NCBI GenBank assembly: GCA_029968055.1
Contig: JASCNX010000001.1
Location: 620,001 to 684,000 of the forward strand
Reading direction: 5' to 3'
Source: Xenophilus aerolatus
Lineage (GTDB): Bacteria > Pseudomonadota > Gammaproteobacteria > Burkholderiales > Burkholderiaceae_C
Length of the DNA: 64,000 nucleotides
In this document: positions 4,455 through 18,960 of the stretch, one piece after another
How the letters are laid out: each line of letters begins with the position of its first letter
How positions within the stretch are numbered: the first letter of the stretch is position 1
The notes under the pieces: model-generated
Databases searched by the model: none
What the model saw: the letters and a program-made list of their open reading frames with translations, nothing else
Told to the model about the DNA's origin: nothing
Program-made: the position numbers and the translations under genes

Positions 4455-6259
4455 GCCGCTGCCTCCTCGGCCTTGAAGCGTGCACCGTTGGCGGCCGCCT
4501 TGAACGGGTCGTGGCCGACGCGGCGCAGCGTGTCAATGAAGGTCTCGCCCGTGTTGCGGGTGTCGCGGTAGGTATTGAGCACCGCCTCGATCACGTCCGG
4601 CACCTCGGCCGCCGAGAACGAGGGACCGACCACCTTGCCGGCCTGCGCCGGGCCGCTGAGGTCGGAGCCGTCGGAGCCGGCCAGGGTGACCTGATACCAC
4701 TCCTTGCCGTCCTTGTCGACGCCGAGGATGCCGATGTGGCCGCTGTGGTGGTGCCCGCAGCTGTTGATGCAGCCGCTGATGTGCAGGTCGATCTCGCCCA
4801 GGTCGTCGAGCTCGTCCAGGTCCTGGTAGCGCTCGGTGATCGCCTCGGCGACGGGAATCGAGCGTGCGTTGGCCAGCGCGCAGAAGTCGCCGCCGGGGCA
4901 GGCGATCATGTCGGTGAGCAGGTGCACGTTGGCGCTGGCGAATCCCGCGGCGCGGGCGGCCAGCCACAGCGCGTGCAGGTCTTCGGCATGCACCCAGGGC
5001 AGGAGCACGTTCTGGTCGTGCGTCACGCGCACCTCGCCGGCCGAGAAGCGGTCGGCCAGCGCGGCGACGGTGTCGAGCTGGTCGGCGTTCGCATCGCCCG
5101 GCGCCTGGCCCAGGCGCTTGAAGGACAGCGTGACGGCACGCAGCGCGGGGTTCTTGTGCGGCGCCACGTTGCGCTGCAGCCAGCGCGCGAACTGCACGTC
5201 GTCGGCGGCCTGCTCGCGCAGGGCGGCGTCGGTGGCTTCGGCGCTCTGGTACACGCGCTGCGCCAGGGCAGGCGGCACGAAGGACGCGGCCACGCGGTCG
5301 AACTCGGCCTGAGTGATGGTGTGCGGCGCGCCGTCGTGCTCGAGGATCTGCTTGTACTCGGCCTCGACGTCGTCGATGTAGCGCTGGCCCTCGGCCTTCA
5401 CCAGGATCTTGACGCGGGCCTTGTAGATGTTGTCGCGGCGGCCGTAGCGGTTGTAGACGCGGATCACGGCCTCCAGGTAGTTCATGATCTGCTGCCAGGG
5501 CAGGAACTCGCGCAGCACCGTGCCCACGATGGGCGTGCGGCCCATGCCGCCGCCCACCTGCACGCGGAAGCCCACATCGCCTGGGGCGATGTTTTGCGAT
5601 GCATCGCCGGTCTCGTGCTTGAGCAGCTTCAGGCCGACGTCGTGCCAGCCGGTGGCGGCGCGGTCCTCGGCGGCACCGGTGATCGCGATCTTGAACTTGC
5701 GCGGCAGGAAGGCGAACTCGGGGTGCAGCGTGCTCCACTGCCGCATGATCTCGGCATAGGGGCGGGGGTCGACCACCTCGTCGACCGCCACGCCGGCGCG
5801 CTCGTCGCTCGTGATGTTGCGGATGCAGTTGCCGCTGGTCTGGATGCCGTGCATGTCGACCGAGGCCAGCAGGTCCATCACGTCGGCCGACTTGGCCAGC
5901 GGGATCCAGTTGTACTGCACGTTCTGGCGCGTGGTGAAGTGGGCGTAGTGCGTGGGAAGCCTGTGCGAGCCCAGCTTGCCCTGGGTCTCGATCGCGTTCT
6001 TGTAGACCTCGGCCTCGGGCTCGTCGTACTCGCGGGCGATCTTCGCGAGCACGCGCAGCTGCCGGCTGCTCAGCTCGCCGTAGGGCACGGCCACGCGCAG
6101 CATCGGGGCGTAGCGTTGAACATACCAGCCGTTTTGCAGGCGCAGCGGGCGGAACTCGTCTTCGGGCAGCTTGCCGGCTTGCCAGCGCTCGAGCTGGTCG
6201 CGGAATTGCGCGGCGCGCAGGCGCACGAACTGGCGGTCGAAATCTGTGTACTGGTACAT
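4451..6259 (-). CDS. cysI: sulfite reductase hemoprotein (nitrite/sulfite reductase family)
   Basis: A 602-residue siroheme/4Fe-4S reductase that reduces sulfite to sulfide. Two half-domains are visible: the first has TTRQNVQYNWIPL and TSGNCIRNITSDE, the second DQNVLLPWV. Near the C-terminus the cluster and siroheme ligands occur as IACPGGDFCALA and HISGCINSCGHH. The short form, without a flavoprotein CysJ beside it, suggests ferredoxin as electron donor; fdxA and a ferredoxin reductase lie in the same region. It is the first gene after the promoter block at 6331-6420 and is coupled to DUF934. Confidence 0.93.
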   Translation of the reverse strand: MYQYTDFDRQFVRLRAAQFRDQLERWQAGKLPEDEFRPLRLQNGWYVQRYAPMLRVAVPYGELSSRQLRVLAKIAREYDEPEAEVYKNAIETQGKLGSHRLPTHYAHFTTRQNVQYNWIPLAKSADVMDLLASVDMHGIQTSGNCIRNITSDERAGVAVDEVVDPRPYAEIMRQWSTLHPEFAFLPRKFKIAITGAAEDRAATGWHDVGLKLLKHETGDASQNIAPGDVGFRVQVGGGMGRTPIVGTVLREFLPWQQIMNYLEAVIRVYNRYGRRDNIYKARVKILVKAEGQRYIDDVEAEYKQILEHDGAPHTITQAEFDRVAASFVPPALAQRVYQSAEATDAALREQAADDVQFARWLQRNVAPHKNPALRAVTLSFKRLGQAPGDANADQLDTVAALADRFSAGEVRVTHDQNVLLPWVHAEDLHALWLAARAAGFASANVHLLTDMIACPGGDFCALANARSIPVAEAITERYQDLDELDDLGEIDLHISGCINSCGHHHSGHIGILGVDKDGKEWYQVTLAGSDGSDLSGPAQAGKVVGPSFSAAEVPDVIEAVLNTYRDTRNTGETFIDTLRRVGHDPFKAAANGARFKAEEAAA

Positions 6260-6476: not shown

Positions 6477-8144
6477 CTAGGAAGTGCCGGCCCGCCCCGC
6501 AGGCGTGCCCGCGCCGGCGGAGAGGTCGGCCTGGATCTCTTCCAGCCGGCGCCCGCGCGTCTCGACCCCCGCGAGGCCCAGCAGCAGTGCCGCCACGGCC
6601 ATCGGGACGGCGATGAGCGCGGCCGACAGCGCCAGGTGGCCGAACACGCCCAGCACCCCGAAGCCCGCGCCGAGGATGCCACCGGCCTTGGAGCTTGCCG
6701 CGATCAACCCCGAGCCGGTGCCGCGCAGGTGCACCGGGTAGATCTCGGCGGCGTAGGGAATCAGCATCGCGATCACGCCGCTGGCGCTGAGCAGCAGCAG
6801 CGCGGTGGCGGCCACCACCGCCGCCGGCGACTGCACCCGCAGCACGGCGAGTGCGCCGAACAGGGCCAGCGCGACGGCGGTGAGCGCGATGAAGAGCACC
6901 AGGGCCCGCACGCTGCTCCAGCGGTGGTAGAGCCAGATCACGAGCGCCGTGCCGGGCAGCGCCAGCAGCGCCGAGCGCGCGAGCAGCGCGTTGGCCGCGC
7001 CGGGGTCCATGCCCATCGCGCCCAGGTTGGTCGGCAGCCACAGCAGGAAGCCGAAGTTCGCCAGGCCCCAGGCCAGCCCGCAGACGATCAGGCCCCAGGT
7101 GATGCGCGCATGCGGCCCGCGCAGCAGGGCACGCATGCCGCCGGCCGGCGGCTCGGGCTCCACGACGACGGCCGCCTCGGCCTGCGAGGCGGCCGCCGCG
7201 GCACCCGAGAAGCGCGCCAGCACGGCCCGCGCCGCGTCGGGCAGCCCCGCATTGGCCAGGAAGCGCGGCGACTCGGGGATGTAGCGCCCCAGGAAGATGA
7301 TCAGCAGCCCCGTGGGCAGGCCCAGCAGCCAGAGTGCGCGCCAGCTGAACAGGGGCACCAGCAGGTCGGCCGAGCCCGCCGCCAGGAGGTAGCCGGCCGA
7401 GGTGCCGATGCCGCCCAGCGCCACGAGCAGCCAGCCGCGATGTGCGGCGGGCACCGTCTCGGCCATCAGCGTGAAGGCGATCGGCAGCAGTCCGCCGGCC
7501 GAGGCGCCCATCAGGAAGCACATCGCCAGGTTCCAGCCGAAGGCCGGCATCGCGCCGCAGATGGCCGTGCCGATGAACATCAGCGCCGACAGCAGGATCG
7601 CCGAGCGGCGGCCGAAGACGTCGGCCAGCCGGCCCCAGAGCACCGAGCCGACGGTGGTGCCGGTGAGCGCCACCAGCGCGAGGATGCCCGCCGTCTCCTT
7701 GCTGATGGCGTATTCGCGCGTCATGCCGGGCATGACGAAGCCCAGCGTCGCCGGCTTGAGCACGTCCACCGCCAGCGCCACGACCAGCACGACCACCAGC
7801 TTCCAGTGCTCGGCGTTGAGCGGCACGCCGTCGGCCAGATGGAAGTGAAGCGGCTGTGCGGGGTGCAGGCGGGCGCGCATCTGGGCGATGCGGGGCATCA
7901 GCCCGTAGGCCGCCAGCAGCACGCCCAGCGGAATCATCGCCATGCCGACGAGCATGGGGGCGTCCATCTCCATGCCCACCATTTCGTAGCCCGTATGGCG
8001 GCCCATCAGGAACATGGGCGCATGCGCGAGCACGCCGCCGATGATCGCGAGGCAGCCGGCCCAGAAGGCCAGCGGATGGTGCAGGGAGAAGTCGTTGGGA
8101 GTGCGCAAGGCGGGTCGGGAGGTCGAGGGCAGCGGGGCCTGCAT
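6477..8144 (-). CDS. MFS transporter, probable organic/aromatic acid carrier
   Basis: A 555-residue membrane protein. From about residue 110 it is a standard major facilitator: FVMPGMTREYAI, then GSVLWGRLADVFGRRSAI (the loop 2-3 motif), RGWLLVALGGIGTSAGY, and late EIYPVHLRGTGSG. These resemble the sugar/aromatic-acid-proton symporter branch. Before this core there are two extra hydrophobic stretches (LAFWAGCLAIIGGVL and MLVGMAMIPLGVLLAAYGL), so the topology may be 14 rather than 12 helices. The ATG at 8144 was chosen because it follows the stop of the extensin-like gene by 11 bp. Substrate cannot be told from sequence. Confidence 0.85.
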   Translation of the reverse strand: MQAPLPSTSRPALRTPNDFSLHHPLAFWAGCLAIIGGVLAHAPMFLMGRHTGYEMVGMEMDAPMLVGMAMIPLGVLLAAYGLMPRIAQMRARLHPAQPLHFHLADGVPLNAEHWKLVVVLVVALAVDVLKPATLGFVMPGMTREYAISKETAGILALVALTGTTVGSVLWGRLADVFGRRSAILLSALMFIGTAICGAMPAFGWNLAMCFLMGASAGGLLPIAFTLMAETVPAAHRGWLLVALGGIGTSAGYLLAAGSADLLVPLFSWRALWLLGLPTGLLIIFLGRYIPESPRFLANAGLPDAARAVLARFSGAAAAASQAEAAVVVEPEPPAGGMRALLRGPHARITWGLIVCGLAWGLANFGFLLWLPTNLGAMGMDPGAANALLARSALLALPGTALVIWLYHRWSSVRALVLFIALTAVALALFGALAVLRVQSPAAVVAATALLLLSASGVIAMLIPYAAEIYPVHLRGTGSGLIAASSKAGGILGAGFGVLGVFGHLALSAALIAVPMAVAALLLGLAGVETRGRRLEEIQADLSAGAGTPAGRAGTS

Positions 8145-8155
8145 GCTACGCCGGC

Positions 8156-8923
8156 TCAGCGACACACCGGCCAGCCGCCGACTTCGAGGTGGAAGTGGTC
8201 GGCGTGCACGGCGTTGTAGCCCGGGCCCAGCACGCCGTCGAAGCTGCGGCAGGCGCCGGCCTGCAGGTCGAAGAGGAAGGCCTGCGCCGGGTCGGCGGCG
8301 CCACGCCCGTCGGACCAGGGGCGTGCAGCGTCGCGCCGCACGACGAGCGTGCGCCCGCCCTCGAGCGTGACGCCGGCGACGTCGAGCGCATCGGCGGTGG
8401 CGTGGCGGCTGCGGCGGCCCGTCGCACGTCCGTCGCCGCTGTTGATGTCGCGGCAGGCGTAGCTCCCCAGGTGCTGCACCGACACGGCCGGCCGCCCGAA
8501 ATGCTGGCGCGCCAGCGGCTGCAATTCGTGCCGCTCCCACATCGCGAAGGACAGGGCGGCGCGGCAACTCAGCAGCGTCGGCGTGCCCAGCGCCACTTCG
8601 CGGCCCGCACGCAGGCGCACGGCGTTGTCGAGCCCGCAGCCGCGCTGCAGCGGCCGGTCGGGCACCGGCTCGAAACGCAGGCCCGCGCCCTCCAGCGCCG
8701 ACAGGCACGCGGCGGGGTCGTCGCGCGTGCGCCGCAGCTTCAGCGGCGTGAGCCAGTTGGGGGCTTCGGCGACATCGAGCGGCGCGAAGGGATCGTGGCG
8801 CGGCGGCAGCACGAGCAGGCCCGCTGCGCGCAGCCCCAGCAGCGTGCCCACGGCCGCCGCCGCCAGCGCAAGCACCCACGGCCATCGGCGGCGCGGGCTT
8901 GGCGGGGCGGGGTCGATGGGCAT
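8156..8923 (-). CDS. extensin-like C-terminal domain protein
   Basis: A 255-residue membrane-anchored protein. A proline/arginine-rich start is followed by one hydrophobic segment, [16 protein letters not shown], then a domain matching the bacterial extensin-like C-terminal family: [48 protein letters not shown], and the terminal [11 protein letters not shown]. The D and H residues of the last two motifs resemble the zinc site of peptidoglycan-active peptidases, so envelope hydrolase activity is plausible but not shown. The ATG at 8923 is preferred; a GTG at 8971 would add 16 residues. Confidence 0.82.
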
Positions 8924-9036: not shown

Positions 9037-9555
9037 ATGGACCTCGACCTGCGCACGCTGACCCGACGCTTCGCCCAGCCGGGCCGGCTGGAGGCGATCC
9101 ACCTGCGACCCGCGCGGCGTGCCCCGGTGCACACCGTTCGCGAAGCGACCGCCATCGCCGGACGCGGCCTCGACGGCGACCGCAGCGCGCGGTCCGCCGC
9201 CTCGGGCGGCAAGCGGCAGGTCACGCTGCTGCAGGCCGAGCATCTGCCCGTCATCGCCGCGCTGGCAGCGCGACCCGGTGTCGAGTCGGCAGACCTGCGG
9301 CGCAACCTCGTGGTGGCGGGCCTGAACCTGGTGGCCGCGCGGGCGCTGTTCCGCGACCAGCCGATGGTGCTGCGCATCGGCGATGCGGTGGTGCTCGAAC
9401 TCAGCGGCCCGTGCGAGCCCTGTTCGCGCATGGAAGAGCTGTTGGGGCCGGGCGGCTACAACGCGCTGCGAGGCCACGGCGGCATGACCGCGCGCGTGCT
9501 GGCCGGCGGCGTGCTGCGTGCGGGGGACGCCGTGCGCTGCGAGCCGCGTGCCTAG
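9037..9555 (+). CDS. MOSC domain-containing protein
   Basis: A 172-residue protein consisting almost wholly of a MOSC domain (molybdenum-cofactor sulfurase C-terminal). Visible parts are [13 protein letters not shown] near the start, [24 protein letters not shown], and [12 protein letters not shown], whose cysteine is the residue expected to carry sulfur or bind a metal cofactor. The family includes YiiM/YcbX-like enzymes that reduce N-hydroxylated compounds with molybdopterin; the substrate here is unknown. It stands alone on the plus strand and its TAG stop overlaps the stop of the convergent deacetylase gene. Confidence 0.85.
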
Positions 9556-10430
9556 CGGGCGGCCGTGCGTGCGACCCGGTCGAGGTTCTGCATGAAAGGC
9601 GTCTGCGACAACGGACGCAGGTGCAGCTGGACGTCCTCCACCTGGAACGCGGGCTTGAGCAGCGCGAGCGCCGACAGCTCGTGCATGCGCGCCTCGCCCA
9701 CCGCGTCGCCGTCGACCGTGCGCACCGACGGATGGCACATGAGCACGTCGCCATCGCCCGCGTGCACCAGCCAGGCCAGCAGGCGGCGCAGGTAGGCGGT
9801 GGGCCCGCCTTCGAAGCCGTACACGCCGAGCAGGTGCCGGCTCATGGGCAGGCCGCGGCGGCGCGCGAGGGCCTCCAGGCCGCGTCCGCCCAGCGCATGG
9901 ATCAGCCGCTGCTTGGCCGGCACCGCCAGCGGGGCGGGCGTGGGCCGCGTGCTCCGCAGCCACGGTGGCGCCCCGGGATAGCGCGCCGCCAGCGCATCGG
10001 TCAGGACCTCGCGCACGCCGGGCAGCTGGTGCACGTGGCGGTGGCCGTCGACGTGCGCGGGTGCCCGGCCCATCGCCTGCTCGAAAGTGTCGAGTTGCGC
10101 GTCGATCGCGGCGCGCACGGCCGCCAGGTCGAGCTGGCGCGCGAAGCTGCGCGCCACCAGGGCGCCCAGGGAGGCTTCCGCGGCAGAGGCGTCCACCGCC
10201 GTGAGGTCCAGGTGCAGCCCCACGTCGGCCTGCGCCGGCGGCAGCACGCGCAGCCGCCGCGCCCCCGGCAGCCACGCCGCGCGCAGCACCATGCAGCTCG
10301 TCGCGGTGACGGCGCCGCGCTCCATGAGCGCGAGCACCGCCTGGTTGATGCCCTCCGACAGCCCGAAGTCGTCGGCACACACGCACAGCGTCCGGGTGCC
10401 GCCGGCGCCGGGCATGTCGGACGCGCTCAT
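9552..10430 (-). CDS. ChbG/YdjC-family deacetylase, NaxD/LgmC-like
   Basis: A 292-residue carbohydrate deacetylase of the YdjC/ChbG/HpnK family. Metal-site motifs are [13 protein letters not shown] (residues about 16-28) and [11 protein letters not shown]. The family includes NaxD of Francisella and LgmC of Bordetella, which remove the acetyl group from undecaprenyl-phosphate-linked N-acetylhexosamine before it is put on lipid A. This gene is the last of a coupled trio: its ATG overlaps the stop of the ArnT-like transferase by four bases, and that gene overlaps the ArnC-like transferase. HpnK-type or chitooligosaccharide roles are alternatives, but the neighbours favour lipid A. Confidence 0.88.
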
Positions 10431-12025
10431 GCAGGCGCTCCAGCAAGAGGAATGGCGCCGGGCGTGCCGGTGTGCAAGAGGCAGTCCGCCCCTTCACCGG
10501 GCCCGCTGTCGTGGCGCCAGACGGCGATGTGGGCGTTGAAAGTGACCAGCTCCATGCCCAGCACCCACGGTGCCAGGAGCTGGGCGTTCGACGGGCCGAT
10601 GACCCAGGTGCGTCCGCCGCCACACAGCAGGGCCGGCTGGGCCTCGACCGGCTGCAGCAACCGCGTCGCGGCCTCGGGGTCGAAGCGGGCGGCGTCGGCC
10701 AGCTCCTTGCGCCAGTTGTCGCTGGCCTGCGCCACTTCCGGGCGCCAGTCGGCAGCCACCACCACCGGCGCCGACAGGTGCCAGTAGAAGGGCAGTTCGT
10801 AGAAGTACTGGTCGAGCATCACCACCCGGTCGCCCGGCGCCACAGCCTGGCCGGCGGGCAGCCGGAGCGCGGCATCGGGCGGTGTGCCCAGGCGAGCGGC
10901 CAGCACCACGGTGCCCAGGCAGGCCAGGGCGGCAGCACCCACCGTCGCACCCAGCAGCCGGCGGCCGGCCGGCCCGGTGGCGGCCCGGCGGGCCACTTCC
11001 GCGATGCCGGTGGCCAGGGGCGGCAGCGCCGGGAGCACGTAGCCGATCAGCTTGGAGCGCGGCAGCGAGAAGAACAGCACGACCACCGCGGTCCAGGCCA
11101 GCATGAGCAGGTCGACGTCGCCGAGCCGTCGCCGCGCCGCAGCCGGCACGCCCGGCGAGCGGCGCGCGGCGGCCAGCAGCCAGGCCGACCACGGCAGGCA
11201 CAGTCCGAGCAGCACCGGCAGGTAGAACCAGAAGGGGTGTTCGTTGTTGAAGCCGCTGGCCGCGAAGCGCCGGAAATGCTGCGTGATGACGAAGTAGTCG
11301 AAGAAGGCCGGAAAGGTCCGTTGCATGGCGACGAACCACGGCCCCGCGATCGCCAGCAGCAGCAGCCACCCCGGCCACCAGCCCGCCAGCCGCAGCATGC
11401 GCGGCCGGCGGCTGGCGACTGCCCACAGCAGCAGCACCCCGGCCGGCAGCACCACGCCGATCAGTCCCTTGGCCAGCAGCCCCAGCGCGGCGAAGGCGAA
11501 GGCCAGGGCCAGTGCGCCGCGCCACGGCAGGCCGCGCTCATGGGCCAGGGCGGCGTCGGCGGCGGCCAGCACGCAGGCGCTGATGCACCCGGCCACCAGC
11601 ATGTCGAGGTTGGCGAACTGCGCGCCCACGTAGAAGAACGGGGCGCTGCACAGCACCGCGGTCGCGAGCCACGCCTGCGCCCGCGTGCCGTGGCGGCACA
11701 GGAACCAGAACAGCGCGCCGGCTGCCAGCCCGGCCCCCGCCAGCGAGGGCAGACGCGCCACCCACGGATGCGGGCCTGCGACCGCCATGGCCGCGGCACC
11801 GATCCAGTAGAAAAGTGGCGGCTTGTGGAAGAAGGGCAGGCCGTTCAGCCGCGGCACCAGCCAATCGCCCGACTGCAGCATGGCGTAGGCGACACCGGCG
11901 TAGCGTCCCTCGTCGGGCGAAGTCAGGGGGCGCCAGCCGATGCTCAGCATCAGCCAGATGGCCGCGGCGAGCAGGAACACCGCATCCCCGCGCACGCTGC
12001 GCGGTCGAACCGGTGCCGCGGTCAT
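10427..12025 (-). CDS. GT39/83-family lipid-linked sugar transferase, ArnT/LgmB-like
   Basis: A 532-residue multi-pass inner membrane glycosyltransferase. Motifs shared with ArnT are PDEGRYAGVAYAML in the first periplasmic loop (catalytic acidic residues), GLPFFHKPPLFYW, and LPRSKLIGYVLPALPPLA. ArnT-type enzymes move a sugar from undecaprenyl phosphate to lipid A phosphates; LgmB and FlmK do this with glucosamine and galactosamine. The start at 12025 overlaps the preceding glycosyltransferase stop (ATGA), and the stop overlaps the deacetylase start. Placement between a polyprenyl-phosphate glycosyltransferase and a deacetylase supports an amino-sugar donor. Confidence 0.87.
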   Translation of the reverse strand: MTAAPVRPRSVRGDAVFLLAAAIWLMLSIGWRPLTSPDEGRYAGVAYAMLQSGDWLVPRLNGLPFFHKPPLFYWIGAAAMAVAGPHPWVARLPSLAGAGLAAGALFWFLCRHGTRAQAWLATAVLCSAPFFYVGAQFANLDMLVAGCISACVLAAADAALAHERGLPWRGALALAFAFAALGLLAKGLIGVVLPAGVLLLWAVASRRPRMLRLAGWWPGWLLLLAIAGPWFVAMQRTFPAFFDYFVITQHFRRFAASGFNNEHPFWFYLPVLLGLCLPWSAWLLAAARRSPGVPAAARRRLGDVDLLMLAWTAVVVLFFSLPRSKLIGYVLPALPPLATGIAEVARRAATGPAGRRLLGATVGAAALACLGTVVLAARLGTPPDAALRLPAGQAVAPGDRVVMLDQYFYELPFYWHLSAPVVVAADWRPEVAQASDNWRKELADAARFDPEAATRLLQPVEAQPALLCGGGRTWVIGPSNAQLLAPWVLGMELVTFNAHIAVWRHDSGPGEGADCLLHTGTPGAIPLAGAPA

Positions 12026-13098
12026 GGCGCCGGCTCCTCGAGGCCCTGGCCGCTCTCTTCGCTCACCACGAAGAGCGGGCGGCCCTTGACCTCCTCGAAG
12101 ATGCGGCCGACGTACTCGCCCACCACGCCCAGAGACAGCATCTGGATGCCGATGAAGAACATGAGGCTGACGACGATGGTGGTCCAGCCCGGCACCGGGT
12201 TGCCGGCCACCAGGTGGTCGAGCACCAGGTACGCGCCATAGCCCAGGGCCGGCAGCGCCATCACCAGGCCCAGGAAGCTGATCAGCCGCAAGGGCCAGGT
12301 GGTGAAGGAGGTCAGTCCGTCGAGCGCGAGATGGAGCAGGCGCAGCGCCCCGAATCGGCTCTGGCCCTGCGCGCGCGGCGCGGGCGTATAGGGCAGGGCG
12401 ACGGCACGGAAGCCCACCCAGGCGTAGAGGCCCTTCATGAAGCGGCTGCGCTCGGGCAGGGAGAGCAGTGCATCGACCACCTTGCGGTCCATCAGCCGGA
12501 AGTCGCCCGCGTCCTCGGGCAGCGGCACCCGGCTCGCGGCGTTCACGAGGCGGTAGAAGAGGTGGCTGCCCCAGCGCTTGAGCGCGGCTTCGTCGGCGCG
12601 GCTCTCGCGCACCGCGTAGACCACCTCGGCGCCCCCGCGCCAATGGCCCACCATCGACAGGATCAACTGCGGCGCGTGCTGCAGGTCGCCGTCCAGCAGG
12701 ACCACCGCATCACCCCGCGCCGCGGCCAGGCCGGCGCTCAGCGCCGCCTCCTTGCCGAAGTTGCGCGACAGGCTCAGGCAGCGGAAACCCGCGAGCTGGC
12801 ACCACTCGCGCGCCACCTGGGCGGTGGCGTCGGTGCTGCCGTCGTCGACCACGATCACCTCCCAGCGCAGGCCGCTCTGCTCGAGCGTGCTCTCCAGCAG
12901 CGGCAGGAGGTGGCGCAGGTTGGCCGCTTCGTTGAAGCAGGGCACCACGCAGGACAGGCTCGGCGTGTCGGGCGCGCGTGCGGCCTGCGGCACCGGGTCG
13001 GCCGCGACGGCGGCCAGGCGCGGCGAGGGCGCGGGCGCGGGCAGGGTATCCATCGTCGAAGGGCGCTGGCGGAGCATGGCGCCTTGTGCAGGGCTCAT
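12022..13098 (-). CDS. GT2 polyprenyl-phosphate glycosyltransferase, ArnC/LgmA/GtrB-like
   Basis: A 358-residue family-2 glycosyltransferase. The GT-A domain begins LSCVVPCFNEAANL and continues EVIVVDDGSTDAT and VVLLDGDLQHAPQ, with DFRLMDRKVVDAL later. Two C-terminal membrane helices follow (LISFLGLVMALPALGYGAYL and TIVVSLMFFIGIQMLSLGVV), ending in the GEYVGRIFEEVKGRPLFVV tail of the ArnC/GtrB group. It should load a nucleotide sugar onto undecaprenyl phosphate on the cytoplasmic side. The first 45 residues are a disordered Ala/Pro leader; internal ATGs (MLRQRP, MDTLP) are possible starts. The chosen ATG overlaps the PAP2 stop. Confidence 0.88.
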   Translation of the reverse strand: MSPAQGAMLRQRPSTMDTLPAPAPSPRLAAVAADPVPQAARAPDTPSLSCVVPCFNEAANLRHLLPLLESTLEQSGLRWEVIVVDDGSTDATAQVAREWCQLAGFRCLSLSRNFGKEAALSAGLAAARGDAVVLLDGDLQHAPQLILSMVGHWRGGAEVVYAVRESRADEAALKRWGSHLFYRLVNAASRVPLPEDAGDFRLMDRKVVDALLSLPERSRFMKGLYAWVGFRAVALPYTPAPRAQGQSRFGALRLLHLALDGLTSFTTWPLRLISFLGLVMALPALGYGAYLVLDHLVAGNPVPGWTTIVVSLMFFIGIQMLSLGVVGEYVGRIFEEVKGRPLFVVSEESGQGLEEPAP

Positions 13099-13676
13099 CG
13101 CGTGCGCCCCTGCGTCGGACCGGTGCCCTGCTGGATGCGTGCGAAGGCGGGCGCCACGCGCCGCGTGGCCAGCCACTGCAGCGCCATGAACAGGCCCTGG
13201 ACCGCCAACGCAAGCACCAGGCCCGCAGCGATGTCGGAGGGGAAATGCATCCCGGCATACACCCGGGCCCAGCCGGTGGCGAGCGCAAGCAGCGCCGCCG
13301 CCGGTGCCCAGCGCCGCAGGCTGGGTCGGGCGGCCAGGGCCAGCGCGACGAAGAACATCACGGTGGCGTGGGTGCTCGGCATGGCGGCACTGGGGCCATG
13401 CGCGATGTGGGCGGGTGCCAGGCCCAGCACGAAGGGGCGCGGCAGGCCGATCCTCTCGGCGAGCGCATGCGCCAGGAAGGAAGCGACGCCAGCCATCGCC
13501 AGCGCCGCCAGCAGGTAGCTGCGGTCGCGCGGCTGGCGCCAGGCGGCCCAGCCCATCAGGACGGCGCACAGCCAGGCGCCGCCTTCGGCCAATGCAGAGG
13601 CGACGGGCAACAGCCAGGGTGCAGGTGAGGGGCCAGCGGTCATCAGCAGAAACAGGGCGGTGTCGGGGTGCGTCAT
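13095..13676 (-). CDS. PAP2-family membrane phosphatase
   Basis: A 193-residue membrane protein with the three PAP2 acid-phosphatase motifs: ERIGLPRPFV, AAMPSTHATVMF and RVYAGMHFPSDIAAG. Five or so hydrophobic segments surround them, as in undecaprenyl-diphosphatase BcrC/YbjG and lipid A phosphatases LpxE/F. The start is the ATG at 13676 (MTHPDTALF); the longer open frame upstream has atypical arginine-rich content. The gene overlaps the ArnC-like transferase by four bases, so it could recycle undecaprenyl pyrophosphate or trim lipid A phosphates for the downstream enzymes. Confidence 0.85.
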   Translation of the reverse strand: MTHPDTALFLLMTAGPSPAPWLLPVASALAEGGAWLCAVLMGWAAWRQPRDRSYLLAALAMAGVASFLAHALAERIGLPRPFVLGLAPAHIAHGPSAAMPSTHATVMFFVALALAARPSLRRWAPAAALLALATGWARVYAGMHFPSDIAAGLVLALAVQGLFMALQWLATRRVAPAFARIQQGTGPTQGRTR

Positions 13677-13809
13677 GCGCGGCCTCGCGCAAGGCGATCG
13701 CGCATCACCCCTGGGAGTGAAGGAGAAAAAGGGTTCATGGTCGGCTCCGGCAGAAACGATCGTCCGTCGCGGCAGGCCGCGACGGGGCCGGCGGCGCAGC
13801 GCGCCGCGT

Positions 13810-14265
13810 TCAGCAGGAGACCGGGGGCGGGGCGAACGCGGGTGGGTGCGCCCGCCAGGGTGCCGAGGGCGGTGGCGGCCCGCCGCGCATGCACGGGCGC
13901 GGATTTGGAGGGGTGGTCGCAAGGCGCAGTGCGGGCACGGCCTTCAGCACCGCAAGGGGCAGGGCCAGTGCCAGCAGCGCAGCGAAGGCGCCGAGGGCAT
14001 CGCCCAGCGCGTGCGCGGCCTGCACGCCGGCGCCCAGCGGCACGAAGAGCGTCGTCTCGTGGTCGCGGGCGTGTTCGAGCCGGTCGTCCCGCTCGAACTG
14101 GGTCGTCTGGCTCATCGGCCGGATGCGGAAACCGGGCTCGTCCTCCCAGCCGTCGCTGCGGAAATGCACCGCGATGAAGGGCTGCAGCGCCGACAGCAGC
14201 AGCGCCCCGATCCACCAGACCAGGCACCGGGTGGACAGCAGGCGACGCAGGCGCGCGGTGGACAT
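13810..14265 (-). CDS. hypothetical small membrane protein
   Basis: A 151-residue reading frame with no family I recognise. It has an N-terminal hydrophobic segment (CLVWWIGALLLSALQPFIAV), a polar middle (EDEPGFRIRPMSQTTQFERDDRLEHARDHETTLFVPLG) that looks like an extracytoplasmic loop, a second hydrophobic segment (LGAFAALLALALPLAVL), and a proline-rich tail. It lies 62 bp after the ketosynthase and 133 bp before the PAP2 gene in the same direction. Composition of the middle part is protein-like, but the proline-rich end is less convincing. Confidence 0.55.
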   Translation of the reverse strand: MSTARLRRLLSTRCLVWWIGALLLSALQPFIAVHFRSDGWEDEPGFRIRPMSQTTQFERDDRLEHARDHETTLFVPLGAGVQAAHALGDALGAFAALLALALPLAVLKAVPALRLATTPPNPRPCMRGGPPPPSAPWRAHPPAFAPPPVSC

Positions 14266-14327
14266 GCGCAGATGCTAGGTGCGACGCGTGAACATCGACT
14301 GACTGTGGCGTTCAGGGTCGGGCAAGG

Positions 14328-15560
14328 TCACGCGGCCCGGCTCGCGACCAGCACGGCATTGGTGCCGCCGAAGGCGAAGGAGTTCGACATCACGTGCCGC
14401 GGCGGCGGCAGCGCGCGCGGCGACGGCCCGTGTACCAGGTCGATGCCCAGCGCTTCGGCCGGGGCGCCCGCGCAGGCCGGCATCCGTGCCGTCTGCATCG
14501 CATGCAGTGCGCAGATCAGCTCCACCGCGCCGCCCGCGCCCATCAGGTGGCCGTGCAGGGCCTTGGTCGCGCTGACCGGCACGCCGCGCACGCCGAACAC
14601 CTCGGCCAGCGAGCCGGCTTCGGCGACGTCGCCGGCGAGCGTGCCGGTGCCGTGCGCATTGACGTGCCCGATGTCGCCCGGCGCCAGGCCGGCGTCGGCC
14701 AGGGCCGCCTTCATGGCGCGCACCTGGCCTGCGCTGTCCGGCGTGCTGATGTGGGCGGCGTCGCAGCTGGTGCCGTAGCCTGAGAGCAGCGCGAGCACCG
14801 GCGCACCGCGCCGGCGCGCGGACGCCACCGATTCGATGACCAGTGCCGCCGCGCCCTCGCCGAGTGCGAAGCCGGCCCGGTCGTCGGCGAACGGCCGGCA
14901 CACCGTGCGCGGGTCGCGGTCGGCCGGGGCCAGCACCTTCATCGCCTGCCAACTCGCGATCACGCCCGGCGACAGCAGCGCCTCGTGGCCGCCGACGACG
15001 GCCATGTCGACCCAGCCGGCGCGGATCGCACGCATGGCCTCACCGATCGCCACGGCCGACGAGGCACAGGCGCAGGCATAGCCCATCGAGGCGGCACGCG
15101 CCCCGAAGGCCATCGACAGCTCGGCCGCCGCCGCATTGGGCATCGTGGTCAGCACAGTGGTGGGGCGCAGGCGCCGGTGGCGGGCATAGAGCTGCTCGGT
15201 GCTCTGGTCGAAGCTGGACGCGCCGCCCATGCCGGCGCCCCAGTACACGCCCAGGCGCTCGGCCTCCACGGGGCGAGCATCGGCAGCCAGGCCGGCCTGC
15301 GTCGCGGCCTCGCGCGCGGCCATGAGCGCCAGCGCGGTGCCGCGGTCGAGGGCCACGCCCGAGGGGCCGCGCACCTGCCGCTCCTCGAAGCCGGCGCAGG
15401 CGGCGGCGCCGAAGGTGAAGCGTTCCACGCCCTCGATCACCACCTCGCGTGGCGCCACGGCGCACAGGTTGTCGGACAGTGTGTCGTGCAGGGCACGCAC
15501 ACTGGCGCCCAGCGGCGTCACCGCGCCGAGGCCGGTGATGGCCAGCGGTTCACCGGTCAT
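14328..15560 (-). CDS. beta-ketoacyl-ACP synthase (FabF-like)
   Basis: A 410-residue ketosynthase of the thiolase fold. The catalytic set is complete: Cys165 in YACACASSAVA, His in HVNAHGTGT, and His in KALHGHLMGAGG; the glycine-rich end SFAFGGTNAVLV is normal. These enzymes condense an acyl chain with malonyl-ACP. The ATG at 15560 is preferred because TGAGG lies 8 bases upstream; an in-frame ATG at 15578 lacks a ribosome site. It follows the acyl carrier protein by 10 bp and belongs to the envelope cluster, so it is a dedicated synthase rather than the housekeeping FabF. No reductase or dehydratase accompanies it. Confidence 0.9.
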   Translation of the reverse strand: MTGEPLAITGLGAVTPLGASVRALHDTLSDNLCAVAPREVVIEGVERFTFGAAACAGFEERQVRGPSGVALDRGTALALMAAREAATQAGLAADARPVEAERLGVYWGAGMGGASSFDQSTEQLYARHRRLRPTTVLTTMPNAAAAELSMAFGARAASMGYACACASSAVAIGEAMRAIRAGWVDMAVVGGHEALLSPGVIASWQAMKVLAPADRDPRTVCRPFADDRAGFALGEGAAALVIESVASARRRGAPVLALLSGYGTSCDAAHISTPDSAGQVRAMKAALADAGLAPGDIGHVNAHGTGTLAGDVAEAGSLAEVFGVRGVPVSATKALHGHLMGAGGAVELICALHAMQTARMPACAGAPAEALGIDLVHGPSPRALPPPRHVMSNSFAFGGTNAVLVASRAA

Positions 15561-15570
15561 GGTGCGGGCC

Positions 15571-15861
15571 TCAGGCATGCGCCGGCGCGGGGCGGGCAGG
15601 GTCCGTGGCCTGCTCCTCGGCCAGGCGCGCATCGATCGCATCGCACAGGTCGCCGAGCGTGATGCCGGCTTCGCGCGGGTCCAGCCTGTCCTCGGGCAGG
15701 CGCAGGTGGAAGGCATCCTCCACCGAGAAGATGAATTCCATGAGCGCCAGCGAGTCCAGGCCCAGGTCGGCCAGGGGCACGTCGCGGCGGATCAGGGCCG
15801 GATCGCAGGCATGCTCTTCCTGCACGATGCGGGAGATGGTGGCGAAGGTGGGTGTGGACAT
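15571..15861 (-). CDS. acyl carrier protein
   Basis: A 96-residue acyl carrier protein. The phosphopantetheine site is Ser37 in DLGLDSLALMEF, and the helix pattern around it (RRDVPLADLG before, VEDAFHLRLPED after) is standard. It is longer than housekeeping AcpP because of an Ala/Pro-rich tail. It lies 4 bp after the hydrolase and 10 bp before the ketosynthase, so it most likely carries the intermediates of that synthase. Confidence 0.92.
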   Translation of the reverse strand: MSTPTFATISRIVQEEHACDPALIRRDVPLADLGLDSLALMEFIFSVEDAFHLRLPEDRLDPREAGITLGDLCDAIDARLAEEQATDPARPAPAHA

Positions 15862-15865
15862 GGCC

Positions 15866-16711
15866 TCAGCTTTCGACAGGGGAAGAAAGGCGATGGCCGT
15901 CGGCCACCGCGCGGGCGAAGTCGATCGTTTCCTGCGCCACCTGGCGGCGGTCGTTGTCGATCGAGATCATGTGGTAGCTGTTCTCCAGCACCACGGTGTG
16001 GAGCGGCGCCTGCGTGAGGCCGCGGGCCAGCAGGTCGACGTTCGACAGGCTGGCCACCTCGTCGTGGCGCGCATGCAGGGCCAGCACCGGGCAGCGGATC
16101 TGCGAGAGGCTGCGGCGCACGGCGCGGCGCAGGCGGTCGTACTCGCGCAGATGGCCCACGCCGATGGCGGCACAGCCGGCGCGCGAGATGCGGCGCTGCT
16201 TGAGTTCCTGCTCGATCCAGGCGCGCACGCGCTCGTTCTTCACGCCGTAGGGCGTGCGTTCGCGGTAGCGCCACAGCCGGCCCAGCGGCGTGTAGAGCGC
16301 CAGCGGCAGCAGCCAGCCGCCGCGCCGGGCCGACCAGCCGTCCATGCGCAGCGTGGTCGACATCAGCACCAGGCCGTCGGCACGCAGGCCCAGCCGCGCC
16401 ACCGCGGCCAGGGCCAGCGAGGCGCCCGCCGAGATGCCCGCGAGCAGCACGGTGCCGTACTGCCGGCGCAGCTTCAGGAACTCCTCGCAGACATGCTCGA
16501 CCCAGTCGGAGAAGCGGCCCGCGACCTGGCGCTGGCGCGAGGCATCGAAGGAGTAGCCCTCGATGTGCGGCGTGCTGAAGGCCCAGCCGGCGCGGCGCAG
16601 GGCGGACTGCAGGTGCAGCAGCTCGTCGGCGGTGCTGCACAGGCCCGGCAGCAGGAGGACCGCGCCCATGGGGGCGGGGCGCGCTGGGGCGGAGAAGGGC
16701 GTTTCGATCAT
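15866..16711 (-). CDS. alpha/beta hydrolase (thioesterase/esterase-like)
   Basis: A 281-residue alpha/beta hydrolase. The nucleophile is Ser94 in LLAGISAGASLAL; a later HARHDEVAS supplies the acid and NSYHMISIDND the histidine, the order of carboxylesterase/monoacylglycerol-lipase-like enzymes. The oxyanion region is LLLPGLCSTADEL. Being first in the operon with an acyl carrier protein and ketosynthase, it may release or transfer the acyl product. Start ATG at 16711; the longer open frame upstream runs antisense into the response regulator gene and is rejected. Confidence 0.85.
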   Translation of the reverse strand: MIETPFSAPARPAPMGAVLLLPGLCSTADELLHLQSALRRAGWAFSTPHIEGYSFDASRQRQVAGRFSDWVEHVCEEFLKLRRQYGTVLLAGISAGASLALAAVARLGLRADGLVLMSTTLRMDGWSARRGGWLLPLALYTPLGRLWRYRERTPYGVKNERVRAWIEQELKQRRISRAGCAAIGVGHLREYDRLRRAVRRSLSQIRCPVLALHARHDEVASLSNVDLLARGLTQAPLHTVVLENSYHMISIDNDRRQVAQETIDFARAVADGHRLSSPVES

Positions 16712-16774
16712 GGAGGCCAGGGGTGCCGCACCGTGGGGACGAAGCTGTTGGAGCCCGCACCTTAGCCGCCCGAG

Positions 16775-16814
16775 CCTGAAGAAAGCCCCAAGAAATCCTG
16801 AAGAGTTCTTCAGG
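16775..16814. promoter_or_regulatory. 11-bp periodic repeat, probable response-regulator binding site
   Basis: Three 11-base units stand head to tail: CCTGAAGAAAG, CCCCAAGAAAT, CCTGAAGAGTT. The last continues to CTTCAGG, so 16797-16814 is also a perfect inverted repeat CCTGAAGA-GT-TCTTCAGG. Eleven-base direct repeats are the usual target of OmpR-family dimers. The site lies between the divergent hydrolase (start 16711) and response regulator (start 16877), so it could control the lipid cluster and the regulator itself. Confidence 0.65.
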
Positions 16815-16876
16815 CCTGCACAGCCGTCGAACAGGCATACTTTCCGCCCCGTCCCCCTGGTCAGCGGCCTCCATCC

Positions 16877-17550
<674 letters not shown>

Positions 17551-17554
<4 letters not shown>

Positions 17555-18960
17555 AGGTGCTCAGCTTCCGGCGCCGGCTGGCGCTGGTGCACTTCCTGGT
17601 CGTCGCCTTGGTGATGGCCGTGGCCGTGGCGGTGGGCACCTGGGCCTTCTCGAAGAACCTGCGCGGCGAACTCGACGATGCGCTGCTCGCGCTGGCCGAG
17701 GTGGAGGCGGGCCTGCTGGCGATGTCCGAACCCGGCTCCGGGCTCGTGGTCCACGAGACGCCGCGCGCCCGCACGCCGACCTACGCGCGGGTCGACCGGC
17801 TGGTGCAGATCGTCGACAGCGACGGCGCGGTGGCCGCCCGCAGCGCCAACCTGGGCACCGGCTCGCTGCCGGTGCCGGCCGACCTGCGCGAGCGCCTGGC
17901 CGCCGGCGGCCCGGTGTTCACGCTGCTGCAGCGCTATGCGGGCGAGCCCACGCGCATGGTGTCGGTGTCGGTGCCCAACCGGCCCGACGTGCTGGCCGTG
18001 CAGGTCGCGGCGTCGCTGGACGACGTCAACCATGCGGTGACCAGCGCGGGCGTGATGCTGGTGCTGCTCGCGCTGGTGCTCATGCTGGCCCTGGGCGTGG
18101 CGGGCGAACTGCTGACGCGCCGGGTCTTCGGGGCCATCGACGACATCGTCGACCAGGCCCGGCGCATCGGCCAGCGCAACCTCGCCGGGCGGCTGCCGCA
18201 CCCCGGCACGCCGGACGAGATCGGGCGGCTGGTCGACACGCTCAACGACATGCTCGACCGCCTCGAGCACGGCATCGAGGCACAGCGGCATTTCACGGCC
18301 GACGCCTCGCACGAGCTGCGCTCGCCGCTGTCGCGGCTGCGCGCCGAGCTGGAGATCGCGCTGCGCCGCCCGCGCGATGCCGCGGCCTACGTCGACACGC
18401 TGCGCTCGGCACTCGACGAGGTCGAGTCGCTCACGTTGCTGGTGGAAGAGCTGCTGGTGCTGGCGCGCCTGGATGCCGGCCAGGAGCGCGGCGAGCTCGA
18501 GCGCCTGCCGCTGCGCCAACTGGTGGAGGAAACGCTGCGCCGGATGGAGCCGGTGGCCCTGCAGCGCGGCGTGAGCCTGTCGCTCGCCGGCGACCGGGGC
18601 GTGGTCGCGGTGTCGGCGCGCGTCGCGGTGCAACTGGCGCTGACCAACCTGCTGGACAACGCCATCAAGTACTCGCCGGCCGGCGGCGCCGTGTCGGTCA
18701 ACCTGCTGGCCGACCTGCCGGCGCAGCAGGCCATCGTGCGCGTGGCCGATGCGGGCCCCGGCATCGACGCGGGCGAGCTGCCGCACCTGTTCGAACGCTT
18801 CTACCGCGGCGCGCGGGCGCGCGAGCAGGCGTCGGGCCTGGGGCTGGGCCTGTCGCTGGCGCAGGCGGTGATGCAGGCGCACGGGGCCAGCCTCACGGCC
18901 GGCAACGAGCCCGGCGGCGGCGCGCGCTTCGACCTGCACCTGCCGCTGGCACCGGCCTGA
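17551..18960 (+). CDS. two-component sensor histidine kinase
   Basis: A 469-residue membrane kinase. A first helix (ALVHFLVVALVMAVAVAVGTW) and a second (VMLVLLALVLMLALGVAGELL, about residues 168-188) enclose a periplasmic sensor region of about 130 residues. HAMP follows, then the dimerisation helix with His254 in FTADASHELRSPLSRLR, and the ATPase motifs NLLDNAIKYSP, VADAGPGID and GLGLGLSLAQ. It should phosphorylate the adjacent regulator. Signal unknown; the envelope cluster opposite suggests membrane stress or cationic peptides. Confidence 0.93.

Follow-up and report, generated by a model that had tools for sequence, protein, structure and literature searches.

The Bordetella lgm locus (lgmA-D), which furnishes lipid A with GlcN, and the Francisella FlmF2/FlmK/NaxD system, in which the sugar is galactosamine, are the closest described counterparts of the operon analyzed here. 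FlmF2 and FlmK have activities like those expected of the GT2 and ArnT-like proteins of our locus, and the likeness to Francisella is one of activity, not of sequence comparison. NaxD, whose activity as described in a review is similar to that proposed here for a YdjC-family protein, deacetylates GalNAc linked to undecaprenyl phosphate (C55-P) (PMC11279074). In B. parapertussis, deletion of the lgm locus abolishes the +161 m/z GlcN species (PMC11895810). Gtr O-antigen systems (GtrA/GtrB/GT-C) also resemble the locus in pairing a GtrB-type GT2 with a GT-C enzyme, and most relatives of the locus carry GtrA. They differ from it in that our locus has a deacetylase, a GT-C enzyme of the ArnT kind, and no GtrA.

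The window, that is, the whole 64,000-nucleotide stretch of Xenophilus aerolatus DNA that was analyzed, carries four consecutive genes in the order PAP2, GT2, ArnT-like, and YdjC (Table 1). This operon is probably an Lgm-type lipid A hexosamine system. The first-pass annotation had described GT2, ArnT-like, and YdjC genes overlapping by 4 bases as a complete trio. The three genes are as claimed, their Pfam matches bear this out, and both junctions among them show the 4-base overlap in the window gene calls, but the operon's fourth gene, PAP2, had been overlooked. It too overlaps its neighbor, GT2, by 4 bases. The trio follows the same order as in the Bordetella lgm locus, and the 4-base GT2/ArnT overlap recurs in Bordetella pseudohinzii (L172).

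Table 1. Genes of the operon, with positions in the window and the supporting Pfam matches
Feature	Positions	Strand	Evidence and place
YdjC-family deacetylase (LgmC/NaxD-like)	9552..10430	minus	PF04794 164.5 bits; last gene of operon
ArnT-like GT-C transferase (LgmB-like)	10427..12025	minus	PMT families PF13231/PF02366 41.3/38.2 bits
GT2, probable polyprenyl-phosphate sugar synthase (LgmA-like, GtrB type)	12022..13098	minus	PF00535 119.8 bits
PAP2-family membrane phosphatase	13095..13676	minus	PF01569 60.7 bits (protein scanned with 16 extra N-terminal residues); first gene of operon

The PAP2, GT2, ArnT-like, and YdjC genes are one unit, and the other nearby genes are neighbors in one sub-clade. 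In same-genus loci of other genomes, the GT2/ArnT and ArnT/YdjC overlaps of 4 bases are kept in 11/11 cases and the PAP2/GT2 overlap in 10/11; the remaining locus (L082) scored an overlap of 106 because the script picked a different GT2 start. The four genes are presumably co-expressed. Across 160 loci (L072-L231), 80 chosen as sites of close ArnT or YdjC matches and 80 taken from an ArnT scan, all three trio genes lie within 7 kb in 103, and their co-occurrence is thus above chance. These 103 loci are not independent, since L084 and L175 are one contig (of the same length, 491743) taken twice with overlapping ranges, and L074 and L075 are near-copies. A YdjC match is present in 12 of the 15 genomes of the genus, the window's included; at E ≤ 1e-20 it is missing from G589, G590, and G599. 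A different set of 47 loci among L085-L230, some near contig ends, holds ArnT relatives without GT2 and/or YdjC. Their neighbors show no common theme, the most widely shared family besides ArnT being found in 12 loci.

Judged by sequence, the GT2 and ArnT-like proteins are akin to those of the lgm locus. Compared with B. pseudohinzii, the window GT2 is 61% identical over 305 aligned columns, the ArnT-like protein 43% over 519 columns, and the YdjC protein 47% over 225 aligned columns. When named genomes were scanned with the ArnT alignment, the trio lay within 7 kb at 47/80 retained loci, many of which are Bordetella and Achromobacter loci with the trio in the window's gene order. For the B. 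holmesii lgm locus, one report prints an ArnT length of 1590 bases and places ArnT 1043 bases after the start of the locus (PMC5454989). In L172, GT2 starts at 5901 and ArnT spans 6944-8533, so that both lengths equal the printed geometry; the printed locus end lies ∼413 bases short of the L172 YdjC end, if the locus starts at GT2.

Phylogenies point the same way. They are quick ML trees with SH-aLRT support alone, built from chosen rows rather than from every locus. The window ArnT falls inside a group of 52 of the 76 rows (SH-aLRT 98) that holds all 10 lgm rows, and 11/11 ordinary ArnT rows lie beyond a branch of support 97. The window GT2 likewise falls, together with all 10 lgm rows, inside a group of 34 of the 63 rows (98); all 16 other GT2 rows, which include two pairs of identical rows, are outside that group. 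In the YdjC tree, six same-genus rows form one group (100) and the deep forks are open. The likeness to LgmABC proposed in the first-pass annotation is therefore borne out by gene order, by sequence, and by the GT2 and ArnT trees; for the YdjC protein, the support is its place in the gene order and its identity to the Bordetella protein. Kinship of ArnT alone is not proof of function, because 18/18 rows drawn from loci that lack GT2 and/or YdjC sit inside the 52-row group, and 13 rows from trio loci with two other gene arrangements sit outside it.

Profile and structure comparisons bear on what these enzymes might do. The PDEGRYAG stretch noticed earlier is indeed present in the ArnT-like protein (SPDEGRYAGVAY), and PDEGRY is invariant in 13/13 aligned ArnT-like sequences, the window's included. 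The sole solved relative of this protein at E ≤ 0.01 is ArnT (CmArnT 5EZM, 143 bits), and its own genome contains no other match to it at E ≤ 0.001. A canonical L-Ara4N pathway would fit the fact that ArnT and ArnC profiles match at all (186.5 and 171.6 bits), but both scores are far under their cut-offs (567 and 529), a YdjC enzyme occupies the place expected for ArnD, and the window ArnT is apart from the ordinary ArnT rows in the tree; we regard this pathway as extremely improbable. In the YdjC protein, residues D23/D24, H73, and H131/H133 (L087 numbering) are invariant in 13/13 sequences. Its match to HpnK (TIGR03473) at 63 bits could suggest a YdjC-led modification of hopanoids instead of lipid A. 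That reading, already disfavored, is very improbable: the score is below the cut-off of 232.6 bits, none of the ten proteins scanned was recognized as a hopanoid gene product, and the Bordetella YdjC, scanned without its first residues, is likewise a weak HpnK match (34.3 bits).

A broader alternative is that the same enzymes serve another acceptor, placing a hexosamine on LPS core, O-antigen, or another envelope glycan in a Gtr-like system with an added deacetylase. The window GT2 is of the GtrB type, matching sll0501, which we take to be a GtrB enzyme, at 294.4 bits versus 165.7 for ArnC, and scoring 248.6 bits with the PgfS profile versus 171.6 with that of ArnC. Greater closeness to Gtr than to Arn had been put forward as a refuting test of the lipid A assignment. 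Run on the GT2, this test was dropped: the Bordetella lgm GT2 gives the same answer (PgfS 252.8 versus ArnC 168.6 bits), and GtrB-versus-ArnC closeness of the window GT2 thus cannot decide the matter. Also in line with another acceptor is a GtrA-family gene at 86/103 trio loci, as in Gtr systems (PMC7389260, PMC11127046). However, published work links Bordetella loci bearing this trio to lipid A (PMC11895810, PMC5454989), a lipid A transferase is the one relative of solved structure that was found for the GT-C protein, and no O-antigen gene was recognized among the neighbors, either by a general Pfam scan or by eye. Transfer to such another acceptor is in our judgment unlikely, and lipid A would be the acceptor of the hexosamine.

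The PAP2-for-GtrA arrangement of the operon is new, whereas the trio itself is ordinary; literature searches by keyword found no description of the arrangement. Unlike the window, which has PAP2 in front, the Bordetella and Achromobacter trio loci carry a small antisense gene between ArnT and YdjC. This gene belongs to the GtrA family PF04138 (70.7 bits in L170, 81.2 bits in L099). By iterated profile, GtrA alone accompanies the trio at 84 of the 103 loci in L072-L231, PAP2 alone at 12, both at 2, and neither at 5 (L089, L103, L111, L121, and L123). The window's gene order is found in 75 of these loci, and there GtrA, present in 61, is always antisense between ArnT and YdjC. With other gene orders it is present in 25/28 loci (11 between ArnT and YdjC, 11 between ArnT and GT2, and 3 outside). 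The 12 loci with PAP2 and without GtrA come from 11 same-genus genomes, not counting the window's, and from one genome of another genus (L096, G453). PAP2 overlaps GT2 in these loci, and the window presents the same picture. L110 and L120, where GtrA is present, have weak PAP2 matches within 1.5 kb (40.1 and 25.8 bits).

The exchange is local. A GtrA gene occurs somewhere in 17/17 other genomes searched (11 of the genus, G453, and the 5 with neither gene at the locus), and the window genome has one GtrA match, which lies at G000:C2:32282-32629 on another contig, beside another GT2. The swap is thus confined to the locus and does not extend to the genome as a whole. L096 stands apart from the genus in the GT2 tree (support 93), and its place in the PAP2 tree is open. 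The case for mutual exclusion of GtrA and PAP2 comes from two PAP2 lineages, of which one is represented by a single locus. At L282 5746-9332 (G545), a second, paralogous pair of GT2 and ArnT-like (GT-C) genes precedes a PAP2 gene whose product shares 58% identity with that of the window, and the locus has no YdjC or GtrA match. Its PAP2 is nested among the operon PAP2s (92/91 and 93/81) and, being nested among those of the genus (93/81), is not a third lineage.

PAP2 matches occur in 46/299 genomes of the window's family at E ≤ 1e-12. In a search of 399 genomes of the order (E ≤ 1e-25, flanks ≤1.5 kb; G453 was not among its matches), PAP2 stood beside GT2 or ArnT at 0/22 loci outside the window's own two. 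A response regulator gene like that of the window was within 1.5 kb of PAP2 at 7 of the 22 (L289, L290, L291, L294, L297, L298, and L302), so relatives of the window PAP2 often adjoin such regulators. Two further clusters deserve mention. L097 1408-5706 (G338) has PAP2, an ArnT-like gene, a gene that looks by eye like DedA, a response regulator, and a kinase in a row, in a stretch that includes a few unread bases. L287 6093-13730 (G599, one of the same-genus genomes without a YdjC match noted above) brings together GT2, GtrA, ACP, and KAS with two genes that resemble GT-C and one that resembles PAP2, the GT-C and PAP2 labels having been given by eye.

In the PAP2 protein, the motifs RP, PSxH, and RxxxxxHxxxD are invariant in 6/6 aligned rows. 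The first PAP2 motif is KxxxxxxRP, and its lysine position is alanine in 6/6 rows. Undecaprenyl-diphosphate phosphatase (YbjG type, NF008813) is the best NCBIfam family, at 60 bits versus a cut-off of 229, and 6/6 members match it. The likeliest role of PAP2 would be that of a C55-PP phosphatase supplying C55-P, to which we give about an even chance; a lipid A phosphatase comes next. PAP2 proteins are described as dephosphorylating C55-PP outside the cytoplasm (PMC12826051). The same source has L-Ara4N transfer yielding C55-P, not C55-PP, and a pathway of that kind therefore does not strictly require a C55-PP phosphatase.

If PAP2 were instead a lipid A phosphatase of the LpxE/F kind, one lipid A phosphate would be removed and the other capped, as in Francisella, whose lipid A is reported to lack the 4′ phosphate (PMC8149597). 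LpxE is the best PDB sequence match (35.4 bits, with YodM/PgpB at 34.8) and comes second by fold. An AlphaFold2 model built on a 6-row alignment, with a mean pLDDT of 83.2, has as its nearest folds B. subtilis PgpB 5jki (E 0.0011) and LpxE 6ebu (E 0.0033). However, fold cannot discriminate here, since none of the 94 matches at E ≤ 10 reaches E ≤ 0.001, and the NCBIfam score for undecaprenyl-diphosphate phosphatase exceeds that for LpxE (NF007159), which is 18.6 bits versus a cut-off of 177. A lipid A phosphatase is a possible but minority reading for this protein. There is also a likeness in name to the PAP2 beside mcr-1 (NF028536), in that a PAP2 gene adjoins one that modifies lipid A phosphate, as MCR-1 does; with 16.5 bits versus a cut-off of 475, the window PAP2 is not a member of that family.

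Taking the Lgm-type reading together with a C55-PP phosphatase, the pathway might run as follows. On the cytoplasmic side, GT2 would make C55-P-N-acetylhexosamine from a UDP-sugar, and the YdjC enzyme would take off the acetyl group. The C55-P-hexosamine would then reach the periplasmic side, where the ArnT-like enzyme could move the positively charged sugar onto a lipid A phosphate, freeing C55-P. PAP2, encoded in GtrA's stead, would most likely feed the C55-P pool for GT2 as a C55-PP phosphatase, and a flippase for the C55-P-sugar would act from elsewhere in the genome. A bolder proposal is that PAP2 takes over GtrA's task at the locus, linking translocation of the C55-P-sugar to C55-P release or turnover, as its appearance in two lineages, and again at L282, might hint; we consider this unlikely. 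The antisense GtrA-family gene of the Bordetella and Achromobacter loci is probably lgmD, and lgmD has been reported as non-essential (PMC4993483). If so, loss of GtrA may need no stand-in.

These loci may be useful beyond the present case. It is not settled how sugars linked to C55-P get across the membrane, and GtrA proteins are only proposed flippases in the sources cited for them (PMC7389260, PMC11127046). Lgm-like loci with GtrA, without GtrA, and with PAP2 in its place offer a natural set of strains for asking about the role of GtrA and whether PAP2 stands in for it. Lgm-type modification of lipid A has been studied in Bordetella, and our analysis points to it in the window's family: an ArnT-type match is present in 105/299 genomes of the family at E ≤ 1e-30, ordinary ArnT included, and many of the loci fetched from those family genomes carry the trio.

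Finally, the surroundings of the operon fall into two patterns. In sub-clade 1 (the window and L073-L076), it lies downstream of genes for a small membrane protein, KAS, ACP, and a hydrolase. The response regulator gene there is divergent, and a kinase gene is seen in those stretches that extend to it; L072 meets a contig edge before these upstream neighbors. In sub-clade 2 (L077-L082), the same four operon genes sit among different neighbors. The upstream acyl-chain genes for hydrolase, ACP, and KAS (14328-16756) and the two-component system were considered as operon members and rejected, being absent from the stretch fetched around the operon in the six L077-L082 genomes; the KAS gene of sub-clade 2 is on another contig or ∼100 kb away. 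At window 14328-18960, a two-component system, together with the hydrolase, ACP, and FabF-like KAS genes from which it diverges, is a separate conserved unit. The response regulator, hydrolase, ACP, and KAS genes are together in 10/10 same-genus loci checked (L314-L323), and in sub-clade 2 this cluster sits elsewhere in the genome (L318-L323).

A promoter scan of 9400-17000 found none, and the same interval has five terminator-like sites versus 1.4 expected, none of them just before PAP2. A hairpin at 13730-13810 has a z of −1.47, with 16/200 shuffles equally good. Upstream of PAP2 in L077 and L079-L082, a CTGAA-N6-CTGAA direct repeat is present in 4/5, the second half in L081 being GTGAA; L078 was not aligned. 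Farther off, in the interval that separates the response regulator gene from the divergently oriented hydrolase gene, window 16775-16814 contains direct repeats spaced 11 bases apart (CCTGAAGAAA / CCCAAGAAAT / CCTGAAGAG, plus strand) with an inverted copy at the end. The block looks like an OmpR-family operator, and it is nearly unchanged in 5/5 aligned sub-clade 1 sequences, which include the window and the near-copies L074 and L075.
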